Assembly (NCBI GenBank): GCA_009889515.1
Contig: WUQR01000139.1
Coordinates: 1,178,001-1,242,000 of the forward strand
DNA: 64,000 nucleotides
Reading direction: 5' to 3'
Source of the DNA: Nitrososphaerota archaeon
GTDB taxonomy: Archaea; Thermoproteota; Nitrososphaeria_A; Caldarchaeales; Calditenuaceae
Part shown: positions 2,106 through 54,568 of the stretch, piece after piece
Numbering within the stretch: position 1 is the first letter of the stretch
How the letters are laid out: every line of letters starts with the position of its first letter
The notes under the pieces: model-generated
What the model was told of the DNA's origin: nothing
The model's input: the letters and a program-made list of their open reading frames with translations, nothing else
The model's database searches: none
Made by a program: the position numbers and the translations under genes

Positions 2106-2915
2106 TTGGCGGTGAGGCTGGACTTCGCTGGAGATGACGCGGCGCTAGTTTTAGAGAGCGGTGGAGGTAAATATCTGATTGTCTCTGACCTTCACCTCGG
2201 ATATGAGGTGGAGCTTGCGCGTGATGGCATACACTTCCCCAACCAGCTCCCCAACATCCTGGAGCGTCTTCTGAGACTTTTGGAGAGCCATAGCCCTGAC
2301 ACCTTGATACTTCTGGGAGACGTGAAGCACAGGGTGGCAGGAGTGAGCTGGAGAGAGTCTAGACAGGTGGTGGACCTATTACAGGCCGTTAAGGAGCGGG
2401 TAGAGGAGGTCATAATCACGCCTGGAAACCATGATGCAGGCATAATGAGCCTTGCGGGAGGGATGGCTAAGGTGGTCTCGGGGCGCGGGGTGAGGATCGG
2501 CGATGCGTGGATGCTTCACGGCCACTGCTGGCCACCGCCCCAAGCGGCCGATGCTAAGATCATAATAATAGGGCATACACATCCTGTGATTAGTTTGGCG
2601 AGGGGCCCGGGCTCGAGGCGGAAGGTGTTCCTGATGATGAAAGCGCCGAGGAGCAGGGTCTTCAAGACGATTGCTAGTAAAATGGGTGGGGTCTCCACAG
2701 CGAGGCGAAGAGGGCAGGTTATCCTCCTTGTCATGCCTCACTTTAACAATGCTCTACAAGGTGTGGAGCTCTCCCAGCTCCTAAGGGGTGGTAGGGGTGT
2801 TAGTCCCCTGCTTAGAAGTGAGATATTCAGTCTTAACGATGCGAGCGTCCTGACACTTGATGGGGCGAGGCTCGGGAGTGTCGATTGGTATGTCAGATCG
2901 GGAGAGCTCTGGTAG
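2106..2915 (+). CDS. calcineurin-like metallophosphoesterase (archaeal SbcD-related type)
   Basis: All metallophosphoesterase motifs are present in order: DLHLG (Asp28, His30), GDVKH (Asp72), GNHD (Asn108, His109), HGH (138-140) and GHTHP (His157, His159). These bind two metal ions and hydrolyse phosphoesters. Size and motif spacing fit the small archaeal SbcD-related phosphoesterase group of unknown substrate rather than the full Mre11 nuclease, which is longer. The start is TTG; a GTG two codons in is an alternative. It follows top6A by 30 bases and overlaps the next gene, so the three may be co-transcribed. A DNA-repair or nucleotide-clean-up role is only inference from this context. Confidence 0.85.
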   Translation: MAVRLDFAGDDAALVLESGGGKYLIVSDLHLGYEVELARDGIHFPNQLPNILERLLRLLESHSPDTLILLGDVKHRVAGVSWRESRQVVDLLQAVKERVEEVIITPGNHDAGIMSLAGGMAKVVSGRGVRIGDAWMLHGHCWPPPQAADAKIIIIGHTHPVISLARGPGSRRKVFLMMKAPRSRVFKTIASKMGGVSTARRRGQVILLVMPHFNNALQGVELSQLLRGGRGVSPLLRSEIFSLNDASVLTLDGARLGSVDWYVRSGELW

Positions 2916-3216
2916 TAGCATAGAGGCTCCGCGCGTATTGGCTGAGAGTGGGAGGGTCAAGCGGTACGTCTTCAAGCCTAGCGGGAGGGTTAGGTGGGTG
3001 GTGGTCGGGAGGGAGAGGGACTATCTCCTCCTCCCAGAGGCACCATACTGCAGCTGTGATGACTTCTATTTCAGGGTCCTACACAAGCAGAAGCCTAGGT
3101 GCTACCACCTAGACGCCCTAGAGATCGCGCGGAGAGAGAAGCTATACGAGGAGATCGAGGAAGAAGACTCTTGGTACGACAGGCTGATGAGTGAGTGGAC
3201 CAGCGAACAGCCCTAG
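2890..3216 (+). CDS. SWIM-type zinc finger protein
   Basis: A protein of 108 residues when started at the ATG at 2890; an in-frame ATG at 2857 would overlap the previous gene further. The centre holds a SWIM zinc-binding signature: Cys-x-Cys, 14 residues, then Cys-x-His (CSCDDF ... RCYH). SWIM domains bind DNA or protein and occur in recombination mediators and small archaeal proteins. The N-terminus is polar and probably flexible; the C-terminus is strongly acidic (EEIEEED). It overlaps the phosphoesterase gene by 26 bases in another frame, suggesting translational coupling. Function is unknown; the link with top6A and a phosphoesterase hints at DNA metabolism. Confidence 0.75.
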   Translation: MSDRESSGSSIEAPRVLAESGRVKRYVFKPSGRVRWVVVGRERDYLLLPEAPYCSCDDFYFRVLHKQKPRCYHLDALEIARREKLYEEIEEEDSWYDRLMSEWTSEQP

Positions 3217-3251
3217 ATAAAAGTCTAACAAGCAATGACCGGGTGATGCGT

Positions 3252-4718
3252 CTATTTCTTCTCGATGGGGGGCTGAGCCATGTTCTCAAACTCTTCAGGT
3301 ATAGCCTTAGACGTGGCAACTTCCCTGAAGACCAAGGCGCTAGGCCTAGCGAATCTCTTCTTCGAAGACATGTCGACCTCGAAGAGGCCGAACCTCATGC
3401 TGTACCCTTTCGCCCACTCCAAGTTGTCAGTGAGGTTCCAGTGAAAGTAACCCCGTATATCCACGCCCTCTTTCTTGGCGAGGTATATCTGATATAGGTG
3501 TGAGACAATGAACCTTGGTCTTAGACGGTCTTCGGAGTCTGCACACCCATTCTCTGTCACGTAGATTGGCAATCGATACCGGTCGTAGAGCCTTTTGGCC
3601 ACGTGGTAGAGGCCCTCCGGGTAGACCTCCCAGCCGAAATCACTAGTCGGCCTCCCATCCAGCGAGTAGGCTCTAGGCTGGCAGCCGTAGCCATAGCCGC
3701 CAACAACCCTAAACCCGCTTGGCAGCGCACTCTCAGCCTTAACAACCATTCTCGAGTAGTAGTTGAGACCTATCCAGTCAAGCCTATTTCGAGCCTCGTC
3801 AACAACCTCCCCACCCACAAGCCCCTTCACAGCGGCATCATATATCGCAACGTTAAACTCGAAGCCTCTATCCGCCGCGGCCTGGTCTTCCCTTGTAAGG
3901 GGCGTCCAGTGGGCCACCGACTCCACCACTCCGACAGGCTTCCTAGAGTAGCTCTTTACAGCATCATAGGCGACTGTATGAGCCATCTCGAGGTTTTTGA
4001 TGACAGTCATGTAGGTCTGGAGGTCGAGGTATCCGGGCGGGAATCCAGAGTTTACTTGTAGGTAGCCCGCGTTTGCGATGACAAGCGGCTCGTTCATCGT
4101 ATACCACATGTCTACTACGTCGTCTAGGTGGTGGGCTAGGAATGCTGAGAGCTTGGCGAACTCTATTACGCACCTCTCATCAGCCCAGCCTGACGGCGCC
4201 CGGTCAGGTCCAAGCTTCCTCACTTTGAGGGGGTCGTGGAGCCAGAGCGGCAGCGACCAGTGGAAGAGGTTTGCGACCGCGAGGCCGCCTCTACTCCTCC
4301 AGTCGGAGAGTATCTCCCTGTAGTGGTTTAGCGCCTGCATGTCAGCCAGCTTCTCGAGCTCCTCCAGATGCCTCCTCTCAACTAGGGCCCGGGTTATGAC
4401 TCCACCACTTCTCTCTACGGGGACCTTCACATCAAAGGTCGGCCTTGGGAATATTCTCGCCCACTCAATCGTTATCCAAGCCGCGTCCATGCCAATCCGC
4501 CGCGCCCTCTCATGATCCTCCCTGAAGAGCCCCCAGTAACCCGGCCCATCCTCCGGCATGTCACCGCTCACAATCCCAGCCAGAATGTTCTCCGGATCAT
4601 GAAGCCAGGCAACCCAGTCAGAGCTGAACTCCGAGCCAGCGACACCCATCTCGTGCTGTACACCGACCGTAGAGAAACCAAACTTAAACTCAGAGCCCAG
4701 GGAATACTTTGCACACAC
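3252..4718 (-). CDS. lacS: beta-glycosidase, GH1 family (LacS type)
   Basis: At 488 residues it is close in length and pattern to the beta-glycosidase LacS of Sulfolobus. The acid/base glutamate is Glu210 in TMNEP and the nucleophile is Glu389 in YVTENG, both in the right places. Other family marks are DALNHYREI-like (here QALNHYREI), HWSLPLWLHDP, SGFPPGYLDL, DWIGLNYYSR and PTSDFGWEVYPEG. It hydrolyses beta-linked galactosides and glucosides and is probably cytosolic, since no signal peptide is visible. The start is GTG, with a TATA-like TGCTATATT about 25 bases upstream, so the message is probably leaderless. It is transcribed divergently from the gene at 4810 and stands alone. Confidence 0.96.
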   Translation of the reverse strand: MCAKYSLGSEFKFGFSTVGVQHEMGVAGSEFSSDWVAWLHDPENILAGIVSGDMPEDGPGYWGLFREDHERARRIGMDAAWITIEWARIFPRPTFDVKVPVERSGGVITRALVERRHLEELEKLADMQALNHYREILSDWRSRGGLAVANLFHWSLPLWLHDPLKVRKLGPDRAPSGWADERCVIEFAKLSAFLAHHLDDVVDMWYTMNEPLVIANAGYLQVNSGFPPGYLDLQTYMTVIKNLEMAHTVAYDAVKSYSRKPVGVVESVAHWTPLTREDQAAADRGFEFNVAIYDAAVKGLVGGEVVDEARNRLDWIGLNYYSRMVVKAESALPSGFRVVGGYGYGCQPRAYSLDGRPTSDFGWEVYPEGLYHVAKRLYDRYRLPIYVTENGCADSEDRLRPRFIVSHLYQIYLAKKEGVDIRGYFHWNLTDNLEWAKGYSMRFGLFEVDMSSKKRFARPSALVFREVATSKAIPEEFENMAQPPIEKK

Positions 4719-52385: not shown

Positions 52386-53969
52386 TTATTTTTGGGGTAG
52401 AAAGAGTTTCACCAGCGAGCCTAGTCCAACTGTTCTGACGACGTTAATTATGAATACGGCGAACCCGGCTGCCATCATCAAAGCCCCAATAAGCGCTACA
52501 CCCATGTATGGCTCATATATTCCGAGGCCCATCGGGTAGAGGGTTCTCCTCAGCATGCCTTGTGTACCCGCCAACCCCATAGCAAGACCCATCACAACCC
52601 CGCCAACACCCATCAATAGTAAGTGGGCATCTGCAAGCTTCTCGTTGAGGGCTTTCCCGGTGAGGAGTGGGAACAGGGCATAAATTGCCGCGAAAATCGT
52701 CAACGAAAGCCCAACGAGAAGTTGAATATGACCATGAATCCCGATTACCCACTGGGTATTGTGGAAGAAGCGGTTCGAGGCATAGTTTGCCTGTATTATC
52801 CCCGCCAAACCACCTATAGCATACCCAGTTATAGAAACTAGGACGAATTTCAGCGGGGCAGAGTACTTGACCGGCCTAGCCCTCCAGATAGTAGCTAGTA
52901 CCGCGAACATTGTAAGCCCCATAGTTATCAATTCTCCCCAAGTAAAGATCTGGCCTTGGATCTGTAGGACAAGGGGCTGTGGCGTATCTGCCAGCATGTG
53001 ATGATTCCAGACGAACAGCGATACAACTAGGTCCGCAAGAATGACAGTCCTTACAACTGATTCGCCGTATAGCTGTCTATTCAGAAGCAGCGGTACGAGG
53101 AGATACCAGGTCCCGGCTGTGAATATGAGGACATTACCGTCTGCAATTAAGTCTAGGCCCCACCAGAAGACATTCTTGTAGACTAGCGGGTCGATCAGGG
53201 AGTAGCTCAGGGAGGAGCCTGAAAACAGGTGGGCGGCACCGAAAAGGGCTAAGAGCACTCCAACACCGCCTATCACGAGTGCGTTTAGAGTAGTGTCGAC
53301 GCAACCCCTAAACACCGAGACTACGAAGACCGGATAGTTGAATACTCTTGCTGTGTAATGTGGGATACCCCTCACCTTGGCCCAGAGTTTATCGAGGTTG
53401 AATGCCGTGAGCATGAGCTCCTTGAAAACATAGCCAGCACCTACCTTTTCACCCCCATTCATCTCAACCCTAGCGGGGAGAAAAATTGTCGCGAACATGT
53501 TGAAGAAGAACACCAGTACAGCTGCTAAAACTAGTGCCACACCCACTCCGAAAGAGAATATTGCCGCCGGATTCCAGCCAGCCAACTCCACCGCGACTGG
53601 TATAGGCCAGTAGAGGGTGTAGAGGGGAGCGTAGTGGGTTACAAATGTAGTGGTCCATATAATGGCGAGCCCAGAGATCATAAGCCAGAAACTCGCATAG
53701 GAGGCTCGCTTGCTATAGATATCTCTCTTCAACACGTAGGGGACTAAGAAGTAAAATGCACCCATTACCGCCATGTAGGCCCAGCCATAGATGCCCACGA
53801 ATGGGTGGGCAGTCATCATGGAGTAGAAATGCCGCTCATCAAAGAGGTCTGTGAGGAGATTTAGAATTCTGAGCCTCATCAATATCCCTTCAATTCCAGC
53901 AAGAGCGAAGAAAATCAACGCCACTACGACAAACCTTAATGCAAGTATCTTTCGCTCATCCTCATTCAT
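52386..53969 (-). CDS. heme-copper oxidoreductase catalytic subunit with altered CuB site
   Basis: A 527-residue membrane protein with about 12-14 helices, clearly of the heme-copper family. Low-spin heme ligands are His55 (MTAHP) and the HxH pair His412/His414; the binuclear metal has His323-His324 (WNHHML). The helix VI motif, usually H-P-E-V-Y, H-N-A-V or (in NO reductases) H-L-W-V-E, reads WWGLDLIADGN: Asp273 replaces the first CuB His, and Asp277 replaces Tyr (or the NO-reductase Glu). The C-type helix VII Tyr, six residues before the His pair, is Ser317. So no active-site tyrosine remains, which argues against oxygen reduction by the known mechanism. It overlaps subunit II by four bases. 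Confidence 0.87.
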   Translation of the reverse strand: MNEDERKILALRFVVVALIFFALAGIEGILMRLRILNLLTDLFDERHFYSMMTAHPFVGIYGWAYMAVMGAFYFLVPYVLKRDIYSKRASYASFWLMISGLAIIWTTTFVTHYAPLYTLYWPIPVAVELAGWNPAAIFSFGVGVALVLAAVLVFFFNMFATIFLPARVEMNGGEKVGAGYVFKELMLTAFNLDKLWAKVRGIPHYTARVFNYPVFVVSVFRGCVDTTLNALVIGGVGVLLALFGAAHLFSGSSLSYSLIDPLVYKNVFWWGLDLIADGNVLIFTAGTWYLLVPLLLNRQLYGESVVRTVILADLVVSLFVWNHHMLADTPQPLVLQIQGQIFTWGELITMGLTMFAVLATIWRARPVKYSAPLKFVLVSITGYAIGGLAGIIQANYASNRFFHNTQWVIGIHGHIQLLVGLSLTIFAAIYALFPLLTGKALNEKLADAHLLLMGVGGVVMGLAMGLAGTQGMLRRTLYPMGLGIYEPYMGVALIGALMMAAGFAVFIINVVRTVGLGSLVKLFLPQK

Positions 53970-54568
53970 GACTTACCACCCTCCACAATTATAGCATCCG
54001 GGACAAACATCCACGGGTGTTGAGGCCCACTATACTCGGTCGACCGTATATCGTAGGCCCCAGGCTCCTCGAAGACCCAGACAATCCTGTTGACATACGG
54101 CTTTGGGACCACCTGCATCTGGAAGACCATCGAGCCATCCTTCCTGAAGATCCCGAATCCATAGACCAAGTCTTCAGATATCACAACAAACTCTACGGGG
54201 GTGTTCGCTGGGATTATTATTGGAGTCTCGGGGAGTTGAAAACTATAGTTTTTCACGTATATTGTTATGGTGGTGGCTGGCTTAGGTTCGTACAATGCGT
54301 TGCGAGCAGAGGGGAGAATTGGCGAGAGGAACAATATATTGCCAATCAACGCCACGGAGAATAGGAAGAGCATCCAGTTCCTCTCACCTTTCTCCATACC
54401 GGCCCTCCCCTCATGCCCACCGTCAGCCTCAACTTCGCGCCCTCCTCTCTGTGTCAGAATATAAAACGCTACGATAAACGCCACGATCACGGATATGATC
54501 CCAAAATAGATGACCTCTATAACAAATTGCGGATACATCGCCAGATGGCTAATCAGCGAAACGAGCAA
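53966..54568 (-). CDS. heme-copper oxidoreductase subunit II lacking CuA
   Basis: A 200-residue protein with two N-terminal membrane helices (about 14-38 and 65-85) and a cupredoxin domain outside. The CuA motif, normally Cys-x-Glu-x-Cys-x3-His-x2-Met, reads S-T-E-Y-S-G-P-Q-H-P-W-M: Ser176 and Ser180 replace both cysteines, while His184 and Met187 remain. The first CuA His is Tyr136. So no binuclear copper can form, as in quinol-oxidising relatives. The start is TTG; an ATG at 54538 is possible. Operon with the catalytic subunit. Confidence 0.85.
   Translation of the reverse strand: MLVSLISHLAMYPQFVIEVIYFGIISVIVAFIVAFYILTQRGGREVEADGGHEGRAGMEKGERNWMLFLFSVALIGNILFLSPILPSARNALYEPKPATTITIYVKNYSFQLPETPIIIPANTPVEFVVISEDLVYGFGIFRKDGSMVFQMQVVPKPYVNRIVWVFEEPGAYDIRSTEYSGPQHPWMFVPDAIIVEGGKS

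Follow-up and report, generated by a model that had tools for sequence, protein, structure and literature searches.

A family of archaeal heme-copper catalytic subunits with aspartate at the helix VI histidine and tyrosine positions: a candidate nitric oxide reductase

Six histidines form the signature of the heme-copper (HCO) superfamily (PMC3413370), and an earlier HCO classifier threw out sequences lacking this sextet (PMC3084760). Among the described NO reductases, eNOR carries an active-site Gln and sNOR an active-site Asn, while gNOR is listed with an active-site Asp and without proton channels (PMC8756737 Table A4). The last of these is further described as a quinone-oxidising, non-electrogenic enzyme encoded by two genes, norGH (PMC8906906), and has been placed near the B-family oxidases (PMC11388526). 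Replacement of a ligand His is not unprecedented in the superfamily, as the putative NODs are qNOR-like proteins in which one ligand His has become Asn and the catalytic Glu has become Gln (PMC3413370).

The window analysed here, a stretch of 64,000 nucleotides, contains an intact open reading frame for an HCO subunit I, which is listed with its active-site residues and its partner subunit in Table 1. The match to PF00115 (the COX1 family) places the protein within the superfamily by fold, and its scores lie far under the cut-off of every NCBIfam oxidase equivalog. By sequence, its closest relatives of solved structure are A-type quinol and cytochrome oxidases, and the AF2 model (mean pLDDT 83, pTM 0.88) aligns in Foldseek with the aa3/bo3 oxidase subunit I at a TM of ~0.77. 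Confidence at residues 271-280, within helix VI, is ~55, with 28 sequences as input and with 22 alike.

Table 1. Features of the Asp/Asp HCO operon and of the subunit I active site (positions in the window)
Feature	Position	Strand	Basis
HCO subunit I, catalytic subunit, 527 aa	52386..53969	-	PF00115, E=4.1e-64; fold match; 22-sequence alignment
HCO subunit II, membrane-anchored cupredoxin domain, CuA ligands lost	53966..54568	-	COX2 and CoxB below cut-off; 23-homolog alignment
His55 of helix II, second ligand of the low-spin heme	53805..53807	-	Invariant in the family and the compared HCOs
Asp273 (GAC), in the place of the helix VI CuB/FeB His	53151..53153	-	Invariant; spacing W+4, HH-50
Asp277 (GAC), ligand +4, position of the A/B cross-linked Tyr or cNOR Glu	53139..53141	-	Invariant; alignment, register differing by aligner
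Ser317, six residues ahead of HH, where C-type enzymes carry the catalytic Tyr of helix VII	53019..53021	-	Invariant
His323-His324, two remaining CuB/FeB ligands, helix VII	52998..53003	-	Invariant in the family and the compared HCOs
His412-Gly-His414, high-spin and low-spin heme ligands, helix X, one-residue insertion before His412	52728..52736	-	Invariant

The codons of helix VI (TGG TGG GGC CTA GAC TTA ATT GCA GAC GGT AAT) read W269-W-G-L-D273-L-I-A-D277-G-N, confirming the WWGLDLIADGN motif and the two aspartates of the original prediction. That prediction also had His55, His323, His324, His412 and His414 retained and Ser317 present, and all six residues, together with D273 and D277, are invariant in a family alignment of 22 sequences whose homologs are 50-93% identical to the query; the insertion in the helix X HxH region had escaped it. 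Five of the six signature histidines are kept, and the sixth, that of helix VI, is Asp in all members, with no His aligned anywhere in helix VI in any of them (0/22). The helix VI His is present in all 19 comparators, A-type, B-like, FixN and NorB proteins among them. Tyr is absent from both the helix VI and the helix VII catalytic positions in 22/22.

The register of helix VI differs by aligner, as L-INS-i and E-INS-i set the CuB His against residue 273, G-INS-i and hhalign set it against 277, and others against 272 or 274. With the aligners split, it is spacing that leads us to assign the CuB His position to Asp273 and the Tyr or Glu position to Asp277. The distance from Trp to the ligand is 4 in all 19 comparators and 4 for Asp273, as against 8 for Asp277, and that from the ligand to the HH pair is 49 in A/B types, 50 in FixN and 51 in NorB (49-51 in 18/19, the exception being L003, considered below), as against 50 for Asp273 and 46 for Asp277. 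The HH pair is separated from HxH by 89 residues both in subunit I and in the NorB of cNOR. Further acids, namely E27, D225, D313 and E346, are invariant and specific to the family and lie in predicted helices of the model, D313 one turn before S317.

Values of dN/dS of ~0.06 and ~0.04 against the closest relatives (L035 and L036, respectively) indicate strong purifying selection and, taken with the invariance across the 22 sequences, show that the substitutions reflect neither sequencing error nor drift. The loss of one signature His and of the catalytic Tyr might suggest a non-catalytic or degenerate HCO paralogue, the more so given a broken remnant in one genome, but such a reading is highly improbable in view of the same dN/dS values, of ligands and both Asp held invariant in 22/22 across this range of identity, and of the 11 genomes in which the protein is the sole HCO. 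The remnant (L066/L020, G158:C30, of the Geocrenenecus genus) is a C-terminal fragment of an Asp/Asp HCO interrupted by two stop codons, and the gene seems to have decayed in that genome.

The original prediction had excluded the A, B, C and cNOR/qNOR types by motif, and alignment with the compared HCOs bears this out. In helix VI, D-L-I-A-D is found instead of the H-x3-Y of A/B types, and in helix VII the invariant Ser317 occupies the place of the C-type (cbb3) Tyr, with FixN as the protein compared. The cNOR/qNOR enzymes (pSymA NorB compared) resemble the family in the ligand-x3-carboxylate arrangement of helix VI, the lack of Tyr and similar spacings, but their H-x3-E is here D-x3-D, with both His and Glu changed to Asp; the partner gene encodes a cupredoxin subunit II instead of the cytochrome c subunit of cNOR, and the family stands apart from NorB in the tree. 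Asp277 is invariant where eNOR would have Gln and sNOR Asn. The putative NODs likewise show one ligand His replaced and the position of the catalytic Glu changed (PMC3413370), though by Asn and Gln on a single qNOR-like chain, whereas here there are two Asp and a subunit I paired with a cupredoxin subunit II.

Among the B-family (ba3-like) enzymes, likenesses include an HNT motif before helix X and an HHxxxDxPxP-like motif in helix VII, and these proteins (L018 and L019) are the nearest group in the tree. The family differs from them in having D-L-I-A-D for their H-P-x-V-Y, in its one-residue insertions near the site, and in CuA, which is lost here in nearly all members. In the tree the Asp/Asp HCOs form one clade with 100/100 support on a long stem, located on the side of the B-like HCOs and L003 and away from the A-type and FixN/NorB proteins; because a number of long branches come together at that point, the tree does not fix the immediate sister group. 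Placement inside an O2-reductase family with an alternative His/Tyr near the metal had been set beforehand as an outcome that would count against the original prediction, and the family instead stands as its own fully supported clade.

The second unusual HCO of the window's genome (L003, G000:C139:301555-305871, subunit I ORF 1381-2952 +) displays H-N-L-M-E in helix VI, with a NOR-like Glu, H-x-M in place of H-x-H in helix X, and a helix VI His separated from HH by 58 residues. The subunit II encoded upstream of it reads RCLEFCGDGHSAM, an intact CuA-like motif, and ORFs of 488-517 aa in G116, G092, G098 and G182 are possible relatives. L003 may represent an NO reductase family of its own. A neighbouring gene was suspected by eye to be NnrS and rejected, having no Pfam or NCBIfam match. 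Small ORFs of ~176-182 aa, in the same genome (L004, G000:C139:1051516-1051725) and in G078, G104 and G128, show a weak PF00115 match (20-23 bits) over positions 338-413.

Among the closest described systems is gNOR, with an Asp at the Tyr/Glu position, two genes including a cupredoxin subunit II and kinship to the B family, although it could be compared by description only. Asp277, at ligand +4, agrees with the substitution of Asp for Tyr in gNOR, subject to the split among aligners over register. As to its two-gene, quinone-oxidising make-up, two genes are found here, subunit II is devoid of CuA in 22/23 members, one (L049) keeping it, and quinol is the putative donor. It is quite plausible, if a little short of an even chance, that the Asp/Asp HCO is an archaeal branch of the proposed gNOR (norGH) working by the same mechanism, in which case the novelty would be small; this account overlaps with the best explanation given below. 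Murali et al. (PNAS 2024) is reportedly the defining paper for gNOR, and their survey of bacterial and archaeal HCO families probably included these genomes. In favour of this account are the Asp at ligand +4, the CuA-less subunit II, the B-side placement in the tree and the published portrait of a quinone-oxidising enzyme near the B family with an active-site D (PMC8756737, PMC8906906, PMC11388526); against it, those same descriptions are silent on any loss of the helix VI His. Searches of plasmids by tblastn, using either full-length subunit I or its helices VI-VII as the query, and of viral contigs yielded no gNOR sequence, the genomes covered being Thermoproteota. The chances are roughly even that the family is gNOR or its sister. 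A separate, unnamed archaeal HCO family, distinct from gNOR and nNOR, with a metal site of two His and one or two Asp and acting on NO or some other small molecule, is a more tentative proposition. The new activity put forward in the original prediction is therefore a weaker claim than it looks, since gNOR with Asp at the Tyr position has already been proposed (PMC8756737 Table A4); the Asp/Asp family may belong to a family already in the literature, and much of its novelty hinges on gNOR membership.

The partner gene for subunit II lies directly upstream of subunit I and overlaps its start by four bases, so that the two genes form an operon. Its product matches COX2 (E=0.0048) and CoxB (TIGR02866, E=5.7e-7), both below the cut-off, and its true start, judged from the homologs, is probably the ATG at MYPQ (~54538), with the listed TTG lying upstream. 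In 22/23 of the subunits II the CuA ligands H, C and C are changed to Y, S and S (RSTEYSGPQHP). Only the L049 protein (1713-2285 +) has all of the CuA ligands, H, C-x3-C, H and M (RCTEYCGFRHSEM), within a motif that runs HGF ... CTEYCGFRHSEM, so that the family must at some point have either lost CuA or regained it. Loss of CuA is what sets the A-type quinol oxidases apart from the cytochrome c oxidases, and a quinol donor would thus be the simplest reading for most members.

Homologs are found in Caldarchaeum-like archaea (Archaeon HR02 at 93%) and in Geocrenenecus, Pelearchaeum, Benthortus, Geothermarchaeum, Scotarchaeum, Hecatella and 'Crenarchaeota' MAGs. Within the window's class, 11/44 genomes carry the Asp/Asp HCO. 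It is the sole HCO over the cut-off in 11/20 family-bearing genomes, most of which are MAGs and some incomplete, and is accompanied by another full HCO in the remaining 9/20.

In O2 cleavage the fourth electron normally comes from an active-site Tyr, which subunit I lacks at both of the known positions. That it would not reduce O2 through the established mechanism, as the original prediction held, is a reasonable expectation. Reduction of O2 without the Tyr, as O2 scavenging or low-rate respiration, is unlikely, although the fold and the heme ligands are as in the oxidases, cNOR itself reduces O2 slowly, and the heme O synthase CtaB is also encoded in genomes that carry the Asp/Asp HCO. Set against this are the Tyr missing from both known positions, the missing third His and the 9/20 genomes that already own another full HCO. 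The presence of CtaB says nothing on the Asp/Asp HCO, as six genomes devoid of any HCO carry it. One CtaB is found in genomes with only the Asp/Asp HCO, two where a further HCO is present, and mostly two where the only HCO is canonical. A CtaB dedicated to the Asp/Asp HCO was considered and rejected because the six HCO-free genomes of the class, which belong to genus g5 and whose CtaB scores over the cut-off, also have one.

Beyond subunit II, the genes neighbouring the operon in the window (read from translations as PAC2-like, Hsp20-like, acyl-CoA synthetase-like and 2-oxoacid oxidoreductase) are not informative. Across the family, a small Bat/HTH_10 regulator (PF04967) with a conserved Cys pair adjoins the operon in 15/23 loci, in varying position and orientation, whereas the HCO loci of the window's genus are without this neighbour. 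In haloarchaea, denitrification and DMSO respiration are governed by NarO and DmsR, which belong to this type and have no PAS/GAF domains, and a further such regulator sits within the Haloferax mediterranei nirK-nor cluster (PMC11218638); Bat-type regulators are, however, not specific for NO. Elsewhere in the window's genome, a locus (L085, G000:C139:718953-722735, ORFs 943-2526 -, 332-946 - and 2603-3256 +) encodes a NirK-like multicopper oxidase with a fused cupredoxin domain, adjoining SCO1 and a Bat-type HTH_10 regulator that is 36% identical to the HCO-flanking one of L041. This oxidase scores below the NirK cut-off and, on our own reading, has H-G-A-S-I-H for the H-x2-D-x-H of NirK, so that it appears to be without the catalytic Asp, and for both reasons it is not called a nitrite reductase here. 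It occurs also in genomes without the Asp/Asp HCO and was undetected in the five genomes of the class that have the Asp/Asp HCO as sole HCO. No NirK over the cut-off was found in the 44 + 9 genomes searched, no cd1 nitrite reductase (NirS) in the window's class, and no NarG over the cut-off in the class genomes.

That an NO-producing enzyme was not confirmed in the searched genomes lends some weight to other gas or nitrogen-oxide chemistry at the heme/non-heme metal site, such as NO dismutation, for which the NODs, with a ligand His lost to Asn and a changed catalytic Glu, are a precedent (PMC3413370). This is nonetheless improbable, as the NODs are qNOR-like single-chain proteins with Asn and Gln and without a quinol site, unlike the Asp/Asp pair and subunit II described here, and nothing points to any particular alternative substrate.

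A gas other than O2, most likely nitric oxide, is probably reduced by the Asp/Asp HCO, given that the metal-binding His and the catalytic Tyr are both Asp, and reduction of NO to N2O is the first-choice reaction, held at even confidence. The best explanation, which as a whole we put at no better than even, is that the family descends from, or is sister to, the B-like HCOs and forms a two-subunit respiratory enzyme of thermophilic Thermoproteota. Electrons would probably be supplied by quinol, or by another donor bypassing CuA, and would travel by way of a low-spin heme bound by His55/His414 to the high-spin heme of His412 and the non-heme metal next to it. This metal would be held by His323, His324 and the helix VI carboxylate Asp273, perhaps also by Asp277. 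Two His with one or two carboxylates are a common ligand set of non-heme iron, while CuB is bound by three His, and the metal would therefore most likely be iron, an FeB as in cNOR/qNOR. The site would then resemble the heme b3-FeB center of NORs with His and Glu each changed to Asp, Asp277 would act in the role of the NOR catalytic Glu, and the reaction would most likely be 2 NO + 2e- + 2H+ -> N2O + H2O; it is in this sense that we infer the metal, the electron donor and the substrate.

The NO-reductase reading draws on the missing Tyr, a carboxylate where NORs have theirs, the kind of regulator nearby and the absence of CuA, as well as on the NorB-like spacings, the sole-HCO genomes, the purifying selection, the regulator beside the NirK-like oxidase of L085 and the descriptions of gNOR. 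It loses strength because no nitrite reductase was confirmed in these genomes, and the low AF2 confidence at residues 271-280 and the breadth of Bat-type regulation count against it.

A widespread and strictly conserved clade with five His and two Asp indicates that the HCO metal site can be rebuilt with a carboxylate. Were the family indeed separate from those already described, many thermophilic archaea would have it as their sole heme-copper respiratory enzyme. If NO is its substrate, the family would add, in thermophilic archaea, a route of NO removal and N2O release that goes under the annotation of cytochrome c oxidase, an annotation that could wrongly mark as aerobic those organisms with no other HCO.
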